Source: a virus. From it: a DNA stretch of 20,549 nucleotides. This document shows, in pieces, positions 2,199-14,986 of the stretch. A model generated the notes under the pieces. The model had not been told where the DNA came from and searched no databases. It worked only from the letters and a program-made list of their open reading frames with translations. Position 1 is the first letter of the stretch, and each line of letters begins with the position of its first letter. The stretch lies in the IMG/VR virus record IMGVR_UViG_3300020172_000146, positions 1 through 20,549 of that record. One strand, 5' to 3'. A program made the translations under genes and the position numbers.

Positions 2199-2218
2199 TT
2201 AAATAATTGGGGCGAAAA

Positions 2219-3616
2219 ATGGGTATTTTTGACAGATTTAAGAGCAAACCAAAAGCTCAAAATGAAGCAAATACTCTATTTGGTCAAACCCAACTAGGTA
2301 ATAATGTCATATATCAAGGGCAAGGCGGTAGACAAACCGTTAGCCAACAACTTTTATATGTAACGACTAGCAGCACCACCACGGCAGGTCGTGTTGTTGA
2401 TATGTCTATGTTAAGCCGTAATAGTACGGTTATGGCGGCAGTTGGCGTAAAAGCCCGTGCATTGGCGCAGCTACCAATTAGCATAATGACGAAGCAAGAC
2501 GATGGAACTTTTGTTGATGCCCTGCAATCTGACAAAGTGGGCGCACGGGATAAGGCTAAAGCCAAGCAAGTGCTTAACCTATTGCGAAACCCAAACCATT
2601 TTGAGAGCCAATACGAATTTTGGTATCAATGGTCAATGTGGCAAGACTTGGCGGGTGAAACTTTTACGCTTTGGTGGCGCAAAGACCAACAAGACTCAAT
2701 GCAAACGCCAATTGAGATGTATAACCTTGATTCAACATTGATTACTGCACGGCTTACAGAAACCCGATACCCTGCATACTCACTTAGTACGCCATCCTAC
2801 GGATTTAACAAAGATGAACCGCTATCAGCCCATCAAGTTTGCCACATTAAGGAAGCGGCTTGGCAGGGTTCAAGCGGATTCAACAAAGGAATCCTAGCTA
2901 CGGAACTGGTTGCATTAGATCAAGACATTGACCTCTACGCAAACTTTGTTATGCAAAACGGCGCAAAACCGTCCGGTATGTTTGTGACTGAGCAAGTTAT
3001 TCCCGATGCTAAGTACAAAGAAATCGCAAGCCGACTTAAAGAAGCATGGTCGAGTATGACGGGTAGCCGACAGACTGACCTAAGTAAGCCCGGACAAGGG
3101 ATGTTGCTAGATCAAGGTATGAAATATCAACCCTTGGATATGTTAACCCTGCAAGACACGCAAACCCAAGAATTAAAAAATCAAACCATGAAGCGTATTT
3201 GTGGTTTGTTTGGTGTGCCGCCCGCAATGATTGGTATTGCAGACCAAAAATACAACAACACGCAAACCATGATGGACGAATTTTACAAAGCCACCATGTA
3301 CCCGATGATTATCAATATTGAGCAAAAATTAAACTACCATTTGTTTAAGGGCTACCCCAACTTGTGCGTCCGTTTTGATACCAAAGACTTCCTAAAAGGC
3401 GCAGCGTTAGATCAAATTAACTTTGTCACGCAAGGCGTAAATGCGGGGATTATGTCCGCAAACGAAGCACGGGAATACCTAAATATGCCCAAAATAGACG
3501 GGCATGACGAGTTAATTAGCGGCAAAAAACAAGAGCCAATGACGGGCGCATCACCTCAAGATACGGGCGGCGGCGGTGGCAATCAAAAGCGCAAAATGAA
3601 TATCGGGACAACTTAA
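2219..3616 (+). CDS. Portal protein, HK97 family
   Basis: This 465-residue protein would form the dodecameric ring at one capsid vertex through which DNA enters and leaves. The ATG at 2219 was chosen because GGGG lies 6 nt upstream and the product begins MGIFDRFKSKPK, a common portal start; an in-frame TTG at 2207 lacks this support. Residues 100-150 contain the aromatic-rich YEFWYQWSMWQDLAGETF stretch. The RICGLFGVPPAMIGI motif around residues 326-340 is a hallmark of the family. The C-terminus is a short glycine-rich basic tail. The stop codon overlaps the next ATG (TAATG at 3614-3618). Position between terminase and prohead protease matches canonical HK97-like gene order. Confidence 0.95.
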   Translation: MGIFDRFKSKPKAQNEANTLFGQTQLGNNVIYQGQGGRQTVSQQLLYVTTSSTTTAGRVVDMSMLSRNSTVMAAVGVKARALAQLPISIMTKQDDGTFVDALQSDKVGARDKAKAKQVLNLLRNPNHFESQYEFWYQWSMWQDLAGETFTLWWRKDQQDSMQTPIEMYNLDSTLITARLTETRYPAYSLSTPSYGFNKDEPLSAHQVCHIKEAAWQGSSGFNKGILATELVALDQDIDLYANFVMQNGAKPSGMFVTEQVIPDAKYKEIASRLKEAWSSMTGSRQTDLSKPGQGMLLDQGMKYQPLDMLTLQDTQTQELKNQTMKRICGLFGVPPAMIGIADQKYNNTQTMMDEFYKATMYPMIINIEQKLNYHLFKGYPNLCVRFDTKDFLKGAALDQINFVTQGVNAGIMSANEAREYLNMPKIDGHDELISGKKQEPMTGASPQDTGGGGGNQKRKMNIGTT

Positions 3617-3819
3617 TGGGCATAGACAATAAAATTTGTGTATTGTTATCTTCACAAATTAAACAGCCTGATGTTAAACTACCCAAAAAAGTGGTTGCTC
3701 CCAAAATACAAGACAACAATCAGTCCATTTTACTTGGGGCAATAAATGAAAAACATCACTCTAGTCTGCGAAGCACAAGTCAAACTTGGACAAACCGCAG
3801 ACGAAGCCAACAACCCTAG
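3616..3819 (+). CDS. Possible small overlapping protein between portal and protease
   Basis: A 67-residue ORF starts at an ATG coupled to the portal stop (TAATG), with a weak GGGA seven bases upstream. Its first 43 codons fill the otherwise empty 3617-3745 interval. The remaining part overlaps the prohead protease gene in another frame for 74 bases. The product is lysine-rich early (KLPKKVVAPK) and basic at the end (TNRRR). No family is recognised. It may be a real small structural or regulatory peptide, or an untranslated leader of the protease gene. The start context favours translation and the long out-of-frame overlap argues against it. Confidence 0.4.
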   Translation: MGIDNKICVLLSSQIKQPDVKLPKKVVAPKIQDNNQSILLGAINEKHHSSLRSTSQTWTNRRRSQQP

Positions 3820-4543
3820 CGGCAAAATTGAAGCCCGTGTGACTACATGGGGCGCAAGGGAAGGCGCAGATGGTCGCAAGTTTAACTATCAGCCCGAAGG
3901 CTTCGCACAATGGGCAGATGAATTTGCAAGCTCTGGAAAACCTATGCCAATGTTTCTCAACCACAACGACATGGGTATGCCTGTTGGTGAATGGAACAAT
4001 GTCACATTTGATGAAGATGGAATGTCGGCAAGCGGCAAACTATATCTCAACACGGTAGCTGGCTCGGATTTATATTCCGTTCTTAAAGAATCCCCAAATA
4101 TGTTTGGCGGCGTTTCCGTTGGTGCTTACGCTGACGAGGCTCGCTATGTCAATGCAATGGGCGAAGAATTTGATATGGATGCAATGGACGATGAGCAAGA
4201 TGCTTATTTCCAAATTACAAAAGGTGGCTTGCGTGAGATTTCGGTAGTTATGTACCCGAACAATCCCGAAGCGAATATTCATCAACTTGAATACTTTGAC
4301 GCTGACGGTAACGCAAATCCACGAACCATCGAGAAAGTCTTGCGTGATGCAGGGCTGTCCCGCAAAGATGCGACCACCGCATCTTCTGTCCTCAAAAAAG
4401 TATTAGAACAGCGTGATGCTACTAAGACTATTGAGGAAGCCCCAAAGCAGGGTGAGCCTGATGCGGTGGTCAATGAAGCCGATGCAATTCTAAAAGCCCT
4501 TGAGGAAAGAGAATTGTTGAAGGCACTCTCCAAACGATTTTAA
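3746..4543 (+). CDS. Prohead protease, HK97 (S78) family
   Basis: This 265-residue serine protease would mature the procapsid by removing the capsid scaffold domain and then itself. GGGG lies 6 nt before the ATG. The catalytic histidine is most likely H73 in the MFLNHND motif, and the catalytic serine S166 in REISVVMYPNNPEA, both in family-typical context. The C-terminal third (about 200-265) carries an RTIEKVLRDAGLSRKDAT segment followed by charged helical sequence, as in many protease/scaffold tails that co-assemble inside the prohead. It sits between portal and first capsid gene. The presence of a protease fits the delta-like extension on the first capsid protein, the probable substrate. 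Confidence 0.93.
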   Translation: MKNITLVCEAQVKLGQTADEANNPSGKIEARVTTWGAREGADGRKFNYQPEGFAQWADEFASSGKPMPMFLNHNDMGMPVGEWNNVTFDEDGMSASGKLYLNTVAGSDLYSVLKESPNMFGGVSVGAYADEARYVNAMGEEFDMDAMDDEQDAYFQITKGGLREISVVMYPNNPEANIHQLEYFDADGNANPRTIEKVLRDAGLSRKDATTASSVLKKVLEQRDATKTIEEAPKQGEPDAVVNEADAILKALEERELLKALSKRF

Positions 4544-4552
4544 GGAATTATC

Positions 4553-5896
4553 ATGTCAGAAAAAATCATTGAAAAACTTGACGCAATCGAAGCATCAAAT
4601 GCCGCTAAGATTGACGAAGTTAAAGCCCAAGCAGTAGCCGCAATCGAAGAAGCCAAGGTTTCGTTCGAGGAAAAGGTAGCAGCACTAGAGGCGAAAGTTT
4701 CTTCCGTTTCAGCCGTGCCTGTTATCAAGACCTACAAAACAATCGCACAAGAAGTTAACCGTTCCGTTAAAGAACAAATCCGTGACTTTTATAAGTCCGG
4801 TGCAAAGGTTCAAAAAGAACTTTCAATGTTTGCTGACGAAAGCCAATACGATGCGTACATGAAGGAAGCCTCGGCATTGACAGGCGGCGGTGCAGGTATT
4901 GGTGGACGCACAGCTTACGATCCAGTATTTGCACCTTTGCGTTTGCTTAATCCTATGCGTGGCGTTGCCCGTTCAGTAGCAACCGATGGCGCAACCTATA
5001 TGTTTCGTGCAAAGGTTGGCAACGCAGGTGCAGCGTGGGGATATGCAATTCAAAATAACGGCGCAGATACTACTGAGAACACAAACATCTGGCAACTTAC
5101 CTTGCAAGATTTGAATGTCCAATTCCCAATCCGTACAGCCGCACTTGATGACATCGACGGTCTAGAAGCGAATGTCGTGAGCGATATGTTGGCAGAATTC
5201 AGCCAATCCGAAGCTCTGTCAATGATTCAAAACAACGACCAAGCCGCACAATCGGGCACAAACCCATACGGCGGCACTAATGGTCTGCGTGGTCTTGACC
5301 AATATGCGGGTGCTAATGCTACTTACGCAGGTGGCACAATCTCTACCGCAGCGTTTGGTACAAGCGGCACAGGTTCATCAAGCGGCTTGCATAGCTTGGC
5401 AACTTATGACCAAATCACTACTAACGCCAACACCGTTGGTGCGGCTAACATCAAGTACAAAGATGTTGTAAATTTCATTTACAGTTTGCCACAGCAGTAT
5501 TGGACATCAACGGCTTGCTTTGTTGTAAATCCAGTATTGCTTCAGCAAATTCGTGGATTGGTAGATGATCAAGGTCGACCAATCTATGTAGACGGTCTAG
5601 CCCGTGCTGATGGCATCGTTGGTTCGTTGCTTGGCTTTGATGTTGTTGTTAACAAGTACCTTGACAATCCATCGCAAGCCACAACGGGTTCAGCTGGCAC
5701 AAGCAGCCTATATCCAATGTACTTTGGTGACTTCCAGAAAGGATTTACCATCGTTGATCGTCTAAACATGATTCTGCGTAGATACGATCAGACATTGCCC
5801 GGCTTCATCACTTTCTACGGTGAGAAGCGTCTGGCAACTTCGGTTGTCGATCCGTTCGCAATCATCCGTTACCGCTCGACTGGCACTGCAACCTAA
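4553..5896 (+). CDS. Major capsid protein 1, HK97 fold with N-terminal delta-like domain
   Basis: This 447-residue shell protein is preceded by AAGGA and a good spacer. Residues 1-60 are a charged, alanine- and glutamate-rich predicted coiled coil (KIIEKLDAIEASNAAKIDEV), the expected form of an HK97 delta scaffold. The segment at about 65-103 links it to the shell domain. From KEASALTG at 104 onward the sequence is capsid-like, with DIDGLEANVVSDML and EALSMIQNNDQ at about 200-230 and DQTLPGFITFYGEKR from residue 412. The protease encoded just upstream would probably cut near residue 100, but no cleavage site can be proven from sequence. A stem-loop follows the stop codon. A second capsid paralogue lies 59 bases downstream. 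Confidence 0.95.
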   Translation: MSEKIIEKLDAIEASNAAKIDEVKAQAVAAIEEAKVSFEEKVAALEAKVSSVSAVPVIKTYKTIAQEVNRSVKEQIRDFYKSGAKVQKELSMFADESQYDAYMKEASALTGGGAGIGGRTAYDPVFAPLRLLNPMRGVARSVATDGATYMFRAKVGNAGAAWGYAIQNNGADTTENTNIWQLTLQDLNVQFPIRTAALDDIDGLEANVVSDMLAEFSQSEALSMIQNNDQAAQSGTNPYGGTNGLRGLDQYAGANATYAGGTISTAAFGTSGTGSSSGLHSLATYDQITTNANTVGAANIKYKDVVNFIYSLPQQYWTSTACFVVNPVLLQQIRGLVDDQGRPIYVDGLARADGIVGSLLGFDVVVNKYLDNPSQATTGSAGTSSLYPMYFGDFQKGFTIVDRLNMILRRYDQTLPGFITFYGEKRLATSVVDPFAIIRYRSTGTAT

Positions 5897-5903
5897 GTAA
5901 ATT

Positions 5904-5930
5904 GAGGGGGGTGTAAAAGCTCCCCTCTTT
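5904..5930 (+). terminator. Stem-loop terminator or attenuator between the two capsid genes
   Basis: GAGGGGGG at 5904-5911 pairs with CTCCCCTC at 5920-5927, an eight-pair stem with one G-U wobble and an 8-nt loop. It is followed by TTT, and a longer run of six T lies at 5941-5946. This resembles an intrinsic terminator with a short, interrupted U-tract, so partial read-through is likely. The downstream genes need transcription and no promoter is apparent in the gap, which suggests attenuation, not full termination. Confidence 0.55.
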
Positions 5931-5955
5931 GCTTAACTAATTTTTTGGAATGACT

Positions 5956-6990
5956 ATGAGCCTAATTCTTGAATCCGTAAAAAAAGCCCTGCTTGAAGGC
6001 AGCGCAACCGTTAATTTAAAAGAAGCATCTGCGCTAACTGGGTCGGGTTCGGATGTTGGTGGACGAGTCATTTACGATGATGCCTTTGCCCCAAAGCGTG
6101 AACACAATCCGCTTCGTGATGGCTCACGAGTTATTGATACCATTGGGTCAGACCAAGCGTTTGTAGTCAAAACGGGTAACGCTACCCTAATTGAAAACAG
6201 CACAAACAACCCTTGGGGTTATCCGGTAAACAACAACACGGGTTCACCAAACATTGCTACATCATTTTGGCAACTTCCGGTGCGCTCGCTAAACGCTGGT
6301 GTGCCTGTACGCACGGCGGTAATGTCCGATATTAACGGGCTAGAAGAAGCCTTGGTTTCTGACTTGATGCTTGAATTTGCACAGCAAGAAGCCCTTTCTA
6401 TGATGTTTAACAGCGACCAAGCGGGATCGACCACGGTTAACTACGGCGCAACTAGCGGCTTGCGTGGGCTTAACAGCTACGCAGGAAGCACAAGCACCGC
6501 ATCCTTTGGTACTAGCGGCTCGGCAATTACTAACGGCTTGCACACAATGTTGCAAGTACAACAAGCGGCACATCAAGCGGTTGCTTACGATGATTTGGCA
6601 AACTTGCAAGCCGCATTGCCATCGCAATTTTTGTACAAAGAAACAACCGCATGGATGATGCACCCAACAACAATTGGTGTATTGCGTAAACTTAAAGCAT
6701 CCGGTAGCAGCAACCATTTTATTGAAATTGGTAGCGATGAAGGTGGTGCAGTGCTTTACATTTTTGGACACCGTGTTATTCCTAACCCATACATGGATAT
6801 TAGCGGCGTGGGCAAATATCCTGTCTACCTTGCGGAGTGGAGCAATTTCTTTACTATTGCCGACAATGAAATTATGAGCATTAAGCGTTTTGACCAAACA
6901 TCGCCGGGCTTTATTTACCTATTTGCCGAAAAGCGTGTTTGCTCTACGATTCGTGATGTGTTTGCGGGTGTCCGTCTGGTTGGTGTTTAA
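5956..6990 (+). CDS. Major capsid protein 2 (HK97-fold paralogue without delta domain)
   Basis: This 344-residue protein is homologous to the capsid protein encoded just upstream. Shared blocks in order are KEASALTG (residues 22-29), NPLR, WGYP, FWQL, PVRTA, then DINGLEEALVSDLMLEFAQQ (from 125) with EALSMMFNSDQ, GLRGL, FGTSG, and the C-terminal DQTSPGFIYLFAEKR. Only about 21 residues precede KEASALTG, compared with 103 in protein 1, so the scaffold-like coiled coil is absent. The ATG at 5956 was preferred because GGA lies 6 nt upstream; ATG 5950 is directly against it. It may be a vertex (pentamer) protein, a minor shell protein or an alternative shell subunit. Which one cannot be told from sequence. 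Both copies retain full-length open frames. Confidence 0.9.
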   Translation: MSLILESVKKALLEGSATVNLKEASALTGSGSDVGGRVIYDDAFAPKREHNPLRDGSRVIDTIGSDQAFVVKTGNATLIENSTNNPWGYPVNNNTGSPNIATSFWQLPVRSLNAGVPVRTAVMSDINGLEEALVSDLMLEFAQQEALSMMFNSDQAGSTTVNYGATSGLRGLNSYAGSTSTASFGTSGSAITNGLHTMLQVQQAAHQAVAYDDLANLQAALPSQFLYKETTAWMMHPTTIGVLRKLKASGSSNHFIEIGSDEGGAVLYIFGHRVIPNPYMDISGVGKYPVYLAEWSNFFTIADNEIMSIKRFDQTSPGFIYLFAEKRVCSTIRDVFAGVRLVGV

Positions 6991-7000
6991 GGATTAAATT

Positions 7001-7663
7001 ATGCCTGTCGAAAGCGGCAATCCATATTTAGGCACTAACCGCAACCCGTTTAACTACGAAAAAGTTGAACAGGTTAGCCGTGACATTGTTACGGAATGGC
7101 TAACGCTTGAAGAAATTACGCAGCAATTAAACCTGTTTCAAGATGAAAGCCAAGACAGTTATTTGAGCAGCATTGAGTTAGCGACCCGCATGGCGATTGA
7201 GGACTACCTCGGTATGTCCATATTCCCCGTCACTTATAAATGCTATTACGGCACTTTTAATGGCATGGGTGGCACACAAATAAGTCTAGACCTACCCGAA
7301 GTGTCGCAAGCGTTTCAAGGACAGGCGGGAGTAACAATTAACTCCGTACAATACTATAACGGAGCGACACCGCCCGTATTGGTTGCGGTAGCAAGCTCAA
7401 CTTATTACTATGACCCAACGGGCAATAAAGTAGTCGTTACCGGATTGCCCGAAAGCATTAACAACTACAACACGAATCCAATTGTAGTTACCTACACTTG
7501 TAACGCCAATCCAATTGCTCAATATCCGGTTATTAAACAAGCGGGATTGATGCTTTTAACGCACATTTATAACAACCGTAGCAACACAACCACTGGCATT
7601 TTGCACGACATTCCTTTTGGCGTGGCAACTTTATTGCGCCCATATAAACCATTGGTGCTGTAA
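7001..7663 (+). CDS. Head-tail connector protein (HK97 gp6 / phiE125 gp8-like)
   Basis: This 220-residue protein has AAGGA eight bases before its ATG. The segment at about 35-75 (LTLEEITQQLNLFQDESQDSYL followed by ATRMAIEDYLG) is the helical region typical of gp6-like connectors, which bind below the portal and extend the DNA channel. A long beta-rich insertion at about 75-170 is larger than in HK97 gp6 and closer to the phiE125 gp8 type. The C-terminal helix (QYPVIKQAGLMLLTHIYNNRSN) and the ending are also typical. It is followed with no gap by the head-closure gene. Assignment is from motifs and gene order. Confidence 0.8.
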   Translation: MPVESGNPYLGTNRNPFNYEKVEQVSRDIVTEWLTLEEITQQLNLFQDESQDSYLSSIELATRMAIEDYLGMSIFPVTYKCYYGTFNGMGGTQISLDLPEVSQAFQGQAGVTINSVQYYNGATPPVLVAVASSTYYYDPTGNKVVVTGLPESINNYNTNPIVVTYTCNANPIAQYPVIKQAGLMLLTHIYNNRSNTTTGILHDIPFGVATLLRPYKPLVL

Positions 7664-8008: not shown

Positions 8009-8418
8009 GTCAAAACAATCCCGCCAATTATGCAAAAGCTATCCAAAACCAATTGGCAAGCATTGTTACGCCCGTGCCCGTCTATGCAAACTTTAACCGG
8101 AATTACGCTACACAGCCTAAATTCTTAACTTGGAATTTGCGTAATGTCCACCAACCTGTCTACACGGGAACGAACCAAAACAACAAAGGGATTGATAGAC
8201 CAATATTTCAAATATCAATCTTTGCTCAGTCTTTTGAAGATGCTATGAATTTGAGCAATACGATATTACAATCGCTACATGGCTACAGCGGTCAATTTGG
8301 CGGTGCAAATGGCTTTTACATAAGTAAAGCTGATGTAGATTGGCTTTACAACACATACGACAACGAAATCGGGTTGCAGCAAGTAATTTTGGATTGCACC
8401 TTGGACATTCCAACATAA
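8005..8418 (+). CDS. Tail completion protein (DUF3168 / gp17-like)
   Basis: This 137-residue product starts at ATG 8005, overlapping the previous stop (ATGA). The open frame extends back to a TTG at 7975, but the coupled ATG is preferred. The order of elements matches small tail-completion proteins: an N-terminal helix (ANYAKAIQNQLASIVTPVPVY), a strand with basic and aromatic residues, a central RPIFQISIFAQSFEDAMNLSNTI helix, and a final strand LQQVILDCTLDIPT. These cap the tube at the head-proximal end. It lies immediately before the tube genes, as in many siphophages. Assignment is by pattern and position. Confidence 0.65.
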   Translation: MSQNNPANYAKAIQNQLASIVTPVPVYANFNRNYATQPKFLTWNLRNVHQPVYTGTNQNNKGIDRPIFQISIFAQSFEDAMNLSNTILQSLHGYSGQFGGANGFYISKADVDWLYNTYDNEIGLQQVILDCTLDIPT

Positions 8419-8451
8419 TATAGAAATCATTTAACTTATCAAGGAACGAAC

Positions 8452-8946
8452 ATGGCTCTCCCAAACAAAGTGCTACCCGGCTTTAGTGCGGCACTCTATA
8501 TGCAACCATCGGCAACGCCCACGCCATTAACCGTAACCGAATTGTCTTTGGTCGCAAGCGTTGCGCCGATTGCGGTTAGCGGCAACTTAGTCAATGTAGA
8601 AGCCGTCCCCGCTTTTGGGCAAGACGATGCAATGGCTAACTTTAGTATTGCGGGTAGCCGCCAATCGGATAAGATTCCTACTCAATCCGCACCAACTAGC
8701 CTAACCATTACAGCACCTTGGAATCCATCGGACGCTGAGTTGTTGCTTATTCGTGGCGATGCTTATTCTGGCGTTGTAGACCGCACCTTTGTTATTAGCG
8801 CAACCGATGGCGCAAATATTGTTTACTACGCATTTAACGGGCGTGTTTCGCAATTCCAAATTGATGCACAACCCGGTGCGGAAGCTAAATGTGTTTTTAC
8901 TATCCACCCACGGGGCAACCAATACGGTTGGTCTAACAACGCATAG
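8452..8946 (+). CDS. Major tail tube protein 1
   Basis: This 164-residue protein is preceded by AAGGA. It should polymerise into stacked hexamer rings around the tape measure. Notable segments are MALPNKVLPGFSAALYMQ at the start, VEAVPAFGQDDAMANF at about 49-64, LTITAPWNPSD near the middle and FNGRVSQFQIDAQPGAEAK near the C-terminus. These fit a beta-sandwich tube protein with an extended loop. It is a close paralogue of the next gene, with most differences in residues 13-46. Position right after tail completion and before the chaperones and tape measure supports a tube role. The specific tube family was not recognised by a named motif. Confidence 0.8.
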   Translation: MALPNKVLPGFSAALYMQPSATPTPLTVTELSLVASVAPIAVSGNLVNVEAVPAFGQDDAMANFSIAGSRQSDKIPTQSAPTSLTITAPWNPSDAELLLIRGDAYSGVVDRTFVISATDGANIVYYAFNGRVSQFQIDAQPGAEAKCVFTIHPRGNQYGWSNNA

Positions 8947-8955
8947 AGGTTTATC

Positions 8956-9477
8956 ATGGCTCTCCCAAACAAAGTATTACCCGGCTTTTCTGCGTCCTTG
9001 TGGATGCAAAGCGGCGCAACACCAACCGCATTTACTACGGCTAACCTGTCCGTATGGACAGCGCAAGTTGCTACGATTGTTGGCACGGTTGCAAACGGAA
9101 CTGGCGGTTCAGGCGTGGCGGTTAATGTGGAAGCTGTACCCGCATTTGGTCAAGATGACGCAATGGCTAACTTTTCCGTTGCAGGAAGTCGGCAGTCAGA
9201 CAAAATCCCAACGCAATCAGCACCAACATCATTGACTATTACAGCACCGTGGAATCCAAGCGATGCAAGTTTGCTTTTGATCCGTGGCGATGCTTACTCC
9301 GGTGTGATTGATCGCACCTTTGTCATTGCCGCCGTTGATGGTGCAAACACTATTGCCTATGCGTTTAATGGTCGAGTTTCTCAATTCCAGATTGACGCTC
9401 AACCCGGTGCTGAAGCTAAATGCGTTTTTACGGTTCATCCCCGTGGCAATCAATATGGTTGGAGTAACAACACATGA
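8956..9477 (+). CDS. Major tail tube protein 2 (paralogue of tube protein 1)
   Basis: This 173-residue protein lies 9 bases after tube protein 1 and has its own AGAGG ribosome-binding site. The first 13 residues (MALPNKVLPGFSA) are identical to those of protein 1. The 118 residues from VNVEAVPAFG to the end differ at only 10 positions. A variable segment of about 32-42 residues between them differs in length and sequence, with a glycine-rich ANGTGGSG insert here. Codons differ at many synonymous positions, so the pair is not a recent duplication and the protein sequence is under constraint. It may form mixed tubes, a terminal ring, or an alternative tube surface. The stop overlaps the next ATG. 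Confidence 0.8.
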   Translation: MALPNKVLPGFSASLWMQSGATPTAFTTANLSVWTAQVATIVGTVANGTGGSGVAVNVEAVPAFGQDDAMANFSVAGSRQSDKIPTQSAPTSLTITAPWNPSDASLLLIRGDAYSGVIDRTFVIAAVDGANTIAYAFNGRVSQFQIDAQPGAEAKCVFTVHPRGNQYGWSNNT

Positions 9478-14551: not shown

Positions 14552-14986
14552 ATGATTCGTAAAGCGACAAAATACGATAAGCCACAAATTATAGAAATGA
14601 TGAAGTTGTTTAGAGCGGAAAGTAACATTGAGCAATTTCAAGATATAGACAACGAACCTTATTGGAATCGCTTATTAGATAACATCATTGCGGGAAGGGG
14701 CGTTGTATTTATTGAGGAAGGCAAAGGCTTAATTATGGCAATCATTACTCATACCGCTTGGTGCGATAAGACTTTGCAAATGTATGAGCTTGCGTGGTAT
14801 GTAAAGCCCGAGTTTAGAAACACGACAATAGGTTATAGATTGCTTAAAGAATATGTTGATTATGGAAAACAACTTAAAGAGGAAGGACGGATTAGGGTAT
14901 TTTCCATAGCCAAAATGGTCACAAGTCCAGACATTAAATACTATAAGTTTGGGTTCACTAAGTTAGACGAGAACTGGATTCAATGA
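14552..14986 (+). CDS. GNAT-family N-acetyltransferase
   Basis: This 144-residue protein has the GNAT layout: an N-terminal IRKATKYDKPQIIEMMKLF strand and helix, a central strand (GLIMAIITHTAW), then motif A with MYELAWYVKPEFRNTTIGYRLL at about 76-97, where R-N-T-T-I-G-Y takes the R/Q-x-x-G-x-G/A coenzyme-binding position. The end has YYKFGFTKLDENW, typical of the last GNAT strand. It should transfer an acetyl group from acetyl-CoA to an amine, but the substrate is unknown. It lies inside the tail-tip cluster, two bases after a minor tail gene and overlapping the tip gene (ATGA). In lambda-like phages this slot normally holds the K peptidase and I proteins, which are absent here. Confidence 0.85.
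   Translation: MIRKATKYDKPQIIEMMKLFRAESNIEQFQDIDNEPYWNRLLDNIIAGRGVVFIEEGKGLIMAIITHTAWCDKTLQMYELAWYVKPEFRNTTIGYRLLKEYVDYGKQLKEEGRIRVFSIAKMVTSPDIKYYKFGFTKLDENWIQ

Follow-up and report, generated by a model that had tools for sequence, protein, structure and literature searches.

Capsid genes of the head module

The window analysed here is the whole of a 20,549-nucleotide stretch of viral DNA (IMG/VR virus record IMGVR_UViG_3300020172_000146, positions 1 to 20,549). Its plus strand carries a head module that, by comparison with Pfam and PHROG, is ordinary apart from its two capsid genes, MCP1 (4553–5896, a full-length major capsid protein of 447 aa) and MCP2 (5950–6990, 346 aa). These are preceded by genes for the terminase large subunit TerL (531–2198; Pfam TerL_nuclease and TerL_ATPase), the portal protein (2207–3616; Pfam Phage_portal, E 1.4e-61) and a prohead serine protease of the S78 family (3746–4543; Pfam Peptidase_S78, E 7e-9; PHROG head maturation protease), and MCP2 is adjoined downstream by a head-tail connector gene (7001–7663; Pfam Phage_connect_1, E 2.6e-5; phrog_442). 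An initial annotation made from the letters alone had described two open reading frames across 4553–6990 whose products share capsid blocks in the same order; both frames are present there, and BLASTP aligns the blocks in order, with 38% identity over 345 aa (E 4e-74). Its assignment of both products to the capsid family agrees with their matches to PF05065 (Phage_capsid; MCP1 114 bits, E 1.1e-32; MCP2 61.5 bits, E 1.1e-16), above the curated cut-off of 24.2 bits, and to phrog_10, major head protein. MCP1 and MCP2 are HK97-fold capsid paralogues in a standard head module.

By sequence, both proteins have as their nearest relative of known structure Rcc01687, the capsid protein of RcGTA, the Rhodobacter capsulatus gene transfer agent. 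An AF2 model of MCP2 made with 65 orthologues (mean pLDDT 74.2) has the HK97 arrangement, and its top structural match is again the RcGTA capsid (6tsu; Z 23.0, rmsd 4.3 over 259 residues), with Z 16–18 to HK97 and about 15–18 to most other HK97-fold proteins. Structure prediction had been proposed as a check on MCP2, and it returned this fold and not a different one. The AF2 model of MCP1 is weak (pLDDT 56.7, 65 sequences), with the RcGTA capsid also as its top structural match, so its fold assignment rests on sequence, by which the MCP1 profile finds that same capsid.

Further downstream, the window encodes two tail tube-like proteins (phrog_158) in tandem (8452–8946 and 8956–9477), which are 80% identical and differ mainly in an N-terminal stretch. 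Among related loci, 34 have the second copy and 106 a single one, some of the latter being ended early by contig edges. A 144-aa ORF (14552–14986) lies among the tail genes just upstream of that for a 1458-aa tail protein, and reads to us like a GNAT-type acetyltransferase.

Conservation and history of the pair

Viral contigs were searched with MCP2 and with profiles of MCP1 and MCP2, and genome contigs with the MCP1 profile. Each profile has more than 560 relatives in viral contigs, and the 193 loci analysed are the best-scoring ones of these searches. The two genes are adjacent in 172 of the 193; in nine more both are present but an ORF call is frameshifted or overlong or an additional ORF occurs, and in the remaining 12 the sequence ends inside or beside the pair. 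All 181 best-scoring loci with room for both genes (a redundant set) have them in the same order, and the pair is present also in loci retrieved by the MCP1 query alone. Because several loci are the same contig represented twice, 67 representatives were used for statistics. Of the records in the phage collection, Methylophilaceae phage P19250A (KX815270) alone has relatives of both, and its host belongs to the freshwater LD28 group; its gene order is that of the window, and its MCP2 is annotated as a 'hypothetical protein'. The search of related phages for conserved pairing, which the initial annotation had suggested, thus finds the pair both in these loci and in P19250A.

In a tree of 66 pairs, one branch with support of 100 parts all MCP1 from all MCP2 sequences, so that a single duplication suffices; the MCP2 branches are longer than the MCP1 branches. 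Recent or repeated duplication is unsupported by this topology. Both genes have dN/dS values of about 0.03–0.24 (16 genome pairs) and are under purifying selection, and these values together with the conserved pairing rule out an artefact or a pseudogene. Judged by these comparisons, the pair is an old and maintained gene duplication. No single-capsid close relatives occur among the best-scoring loci retrieved and in the phage collection the portal proteins next in similarity are only about 25% identical, so that the state before duplication is not seen. Four loci (L127, L128, L130 and L132) have an MCP1 in the window's clade of the tree and an MCP2 in that of P19250A, which suggests that recombination can exchange one gene without the other.

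N-termini and the gene junction

The paralogues differ conspicuously at their N-termini. In MCP1 the KEASALTG motif (4862–4885), a possible processing junction, begins at residue 104, and the 103 residues ahead of it (4553–4861) are kept in orthologues and have the length of a delta domain. Residues 2–51 and 64–81 are predicted by AF2, with low confidence, to be helical, and such a helical domain ahead of the shell domain is found in MCP1 only; it is presumed from its sequence to be scaffold (delta)-like and to be removed later. In MCP2 the motif (6019–6042) begins at residue 24 when counted from 5950. A second ATG at 5956 is, however, the equivalent start in many orthologues and has a conserved GGA 6 nt upstream, and is probably the start codon, which leaves a leader of 21 residues (5956–6018), kept in orthologues and with one helix (5–16) in the model. 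The figures of about 103 and 21 residues ahead of the motif in the initial annotation are therefore correct, the latter with the start at 5956.

In HK97, gp5 has an N-terminal delta domain of about 103 residues, the protease gene is located just upstream and cleavage occurs after residue 103. The alignment of the MCP2 model to HK97 prohead I begins at HK97 residue 76, so the MCP2 leader may be the counterpart of the end of the delta domain; by simple offset, we infer that the HK97 cleavage maps to KEASALTG or its vicinity in each protein, and the S78 protease (3746–4543) presumably processes both. Within a genome, the motif variants of MCP1 and MCP2 match more often than in shuffles, although the effect is small and the shuffles ignore relatedness. 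In one clade (L105, L107, L111, L113 and L118) the MCP1 motif is altered and that of MCP2 is not, a pattern that speaks against strictly shared cleavage rules. For these reasons we do not adopt strict co-evolution of KEASALTG as a common protease site, and keep it as a hint.

Some relatives have a longer MCP2. In ten loci (L142, L150, L156, L081, L082, L084, L086, L087, L090 and L094) the frame is open for about 100 residues further upstream, and the extension is a phrog_2859 domain, unrelated to the MCP1 scaffold domain; the fusions span, for example, 5931–7256 in L142 and 4226–5554 in L081. The MCP1/MCP2 spacers of about 345 nt in such loci hold this in-frame extension of MCP2, and a separate extra gene is ruled out. 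The MCP2 tree places the carriers at two distinct positions. The phrog_2859 domain occurs in other phages as well: proteins longer than 800 residues and annotated as major capsid protein begin with it in Synechococcus phage S-CBS1 and Roseobacter phage CRP-811, as does, in a Vibrio phage, a coil-containing protein encoded upstream of the capsid. The N-terminus of MCP2 can therefore bear a head-associated module at the position that the scaffold has in MCP1. A longer MCP1/MCP2 gap in L075 contains a separate 217-aa ORF (8339–8992) starting GNMFYTYAHYKKDTGELFYIGKGKG, which looks GIY-YIG-like to us and suggests a homing endonuclease.

Between the genes of the window is a GC-rich, terminator-like hairpin of nine pairs (5904–5927), followed by TTTGCTTAAC. 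It is the first listed of 23 terminator-like sites on the two strands of the window and has the most GC pairs; the number of sites is no higher than in shuffled sequence, so the evidence for the hairpin is its conservation. When a hairpin was scored by at least five GC pairs no more than 60 nt after a stop codon, one was present just 3' of the MCP1 stop in 67 of 67 representatives, with differing stem sequences. The same test applied to the other junctions of the module gave 1/300 in total (TerL 0/47, portal 0/57, protease 0/66, MCP2 1/66, connector 0/64). The T runs behind the hairpin are short in several members, and the element could be a 3'-end stabiliser instead of a terminator. Whether it terminates or stabilises transcripts, more MCP1 than MCP2 is expected, and MCP1 is accordingly predicted to be made in excess.

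A possible division of labour and known systems

The reading that we favour, with some but not great confidence, gives MCP2 a specialised place in the shell at low copy number, most likely that of pentamer (vertex) protein, and has it co-assemble through the scaffold domains of MCP1. The two products of the old duplication would build one head together. MCP1 would be the major subunit, forming hexamers and supplying the scaffold as its own delta domain of about 103 residues, and MCP2, with the shell fold retained behind a leader of just 21 or so, would be recruited into the shell scaffolded by those delta domains. With the terminator-like hairpin between the genes, MCP2 output would be lower, and the protein would take a minority position in the lattice, most likely the pentameric vertices, as does gp24 in T4. 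The prohead protease may trim both proteins at or near KEASALTG. The stoichiometry, the vertex position of MCP2 and the cleavage at KEASALTG are what we infer.

The places where the paralogues diverge bear on this. Relative to MCP1, MCP2 has about 80 fewer N-terminal residues and three internal gaps, one of 8 residues in the P-linker and two of 6 and 8 in the A-domain, and its E-loop is a little longer. With domain borders that we set from the MCP2 model, the ratio of between-family to within-family identity is lowest in the A-domain, at 0.46, and 0.57–0.78 in the other parts. The A-domain encircles the capsomer axis, and divergence focused there fits a difference in capsomer type, although within each paralogue family, too, no other part is as variable. 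Some T4 gp24-bypass mutations, by which gp23 replaces gp24, are at A-domain sites in the intra-capsomer subunit interface (PMC9958956). Together, the hairpin and the A-domain divergence indicate unequal amounts and a capsomer-type difference, and so fit a labour division of the gp23/gp24 kind. Of the initial annotation's comparison with gp23 and gp24, the paralogue pair, the single scaffold-length domain and the conserved pairing are upheld, and the specialised role of MCP2 is made plausible by the hairpin and the A-domain.

It is unlikely that MCP1 and MCP2 form a mosaic shell, mixed in the same capsomers with no fixed position, in which MCP2 would reduce the prohead scaffold or tune stability. 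Two-component Family 2B encapsulins do co-assemble two HK97-fold proteins into shells whose composition varies and whose tiling is irregular (PMC12407261), and the core folds of the paralogues here are collinear, with similar N-arm, spine and P-linker. However, divergence is greatest in the A-domain, which would need to match its neighbours round one capsomer axis, and the old, unbroken pairing suggests fixed roles. Improbable, too, is a role for MCP2 near the portal or as some other special element of the shell, such as a ring at the portal vertex and not eleven pentamers: in the examined loci its gene does have MCP1 on one side and the head-tail connector on the other, and a low copy number would fit, but gene order alone is weak evidence and we know of no HK97-fold paralogue confined to the portal vertex. 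Least probable of all is that MCP2 is an alternative capsid (for some conditions or another head size) or a non-virion assembly factor, since, although the phrog_2859 extension means that its N-terminus may have its own job, every retrieved relative with room keeps the gene, under purifying selection like that on MCP1, and no regulatory switch was seen.

Neither the HK97 fold nor the concept of a vertex protein that is a paralogue is new. In the titles, abstracts and passages covered, we found no precedent for other tandem HK97-fold capsid genes in siphophages, and the combination of a scaffold-fused paralogue, a delta-less partner and a conserved hairpin in a siphophage family of about 38 kb appears, within that literature, to be new. 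The family is a large group of small freshwater tailed phages with paired shell-protein genes, and the pair is a small natural system in which to ask why certain tailed phages have a dedicated vertex protein. The paralogues are still 38% identical, one of them alone carries the scaffold and P19250A is an isolated phage, so labour division, scaffold sharing and stoichiometry control could be put to a direct test. The pair also suggests a function for the 'hypothetical' protein of P19250A, which is found in hundreds of viral contigs.

HK97 gp5 is like MCP1 in its fold, its N-terminal domain of about 103 residues and its upstream protease gene, but HK97 has one capsid gene where there are two here. 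Because that single protein forms both pentamers and hexamers, no vertex protein is required for a genome of about 38 kb. RcGTA, whose capsid is also the closest solved relative of the MCP2 model by fold, likewise makes the pentamers and hexamers of its particle from one capsid protein (PMC7296036). The two-component Family 2B encapsulin of Streptomyces lydicus shares the use of two HK97-fold proteins in one shell; it is a cellular nanocompartment with irregular mixing and without portal, terminase or protease (PMC12407261). With portal, terminase, protease and connector genes adjoining the capsid pair, identity as a two-component encapsulin is ruled out here. P19250A has the window's gene order and proteins 67% (MCP1) and 53% (MCP2) identical to those of the window, but one tail tube-like gene instead of two.

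The closest parallel in logic is T4, in which gp24* fills 11 vertices and loses 10 N-terminal residues compared to 65 in gp23 (PMC9958956). The likeness lies in two HK97-fold paralogues with a long and a short N-terminal propeptide, which in the present case would also share one head. T4 has a separate scaffold core, whereas scaffold-length sequence is here fused to MCP1, and gp23 and gp24 are about 20% identical, in contrast to 38% for MCP1 and MCP2. The T4 genome is also much larger, at about 170 kb compared to about 38 kb. There was no match to the T4 Gp23-type family by descent, since the shell domains match PF05065 and no other Pfam family, and the T4-like logic looks to have evolved independently in this siphophage family. 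More tentatively, these widespread phages of about 38 kb may have independently evolved the whole of a T4-like labour division, with a delta-bearing hexamer protein, a dependent delta-less vertex protein and a ratio set by a conserved intergenic attenuator of transcription.
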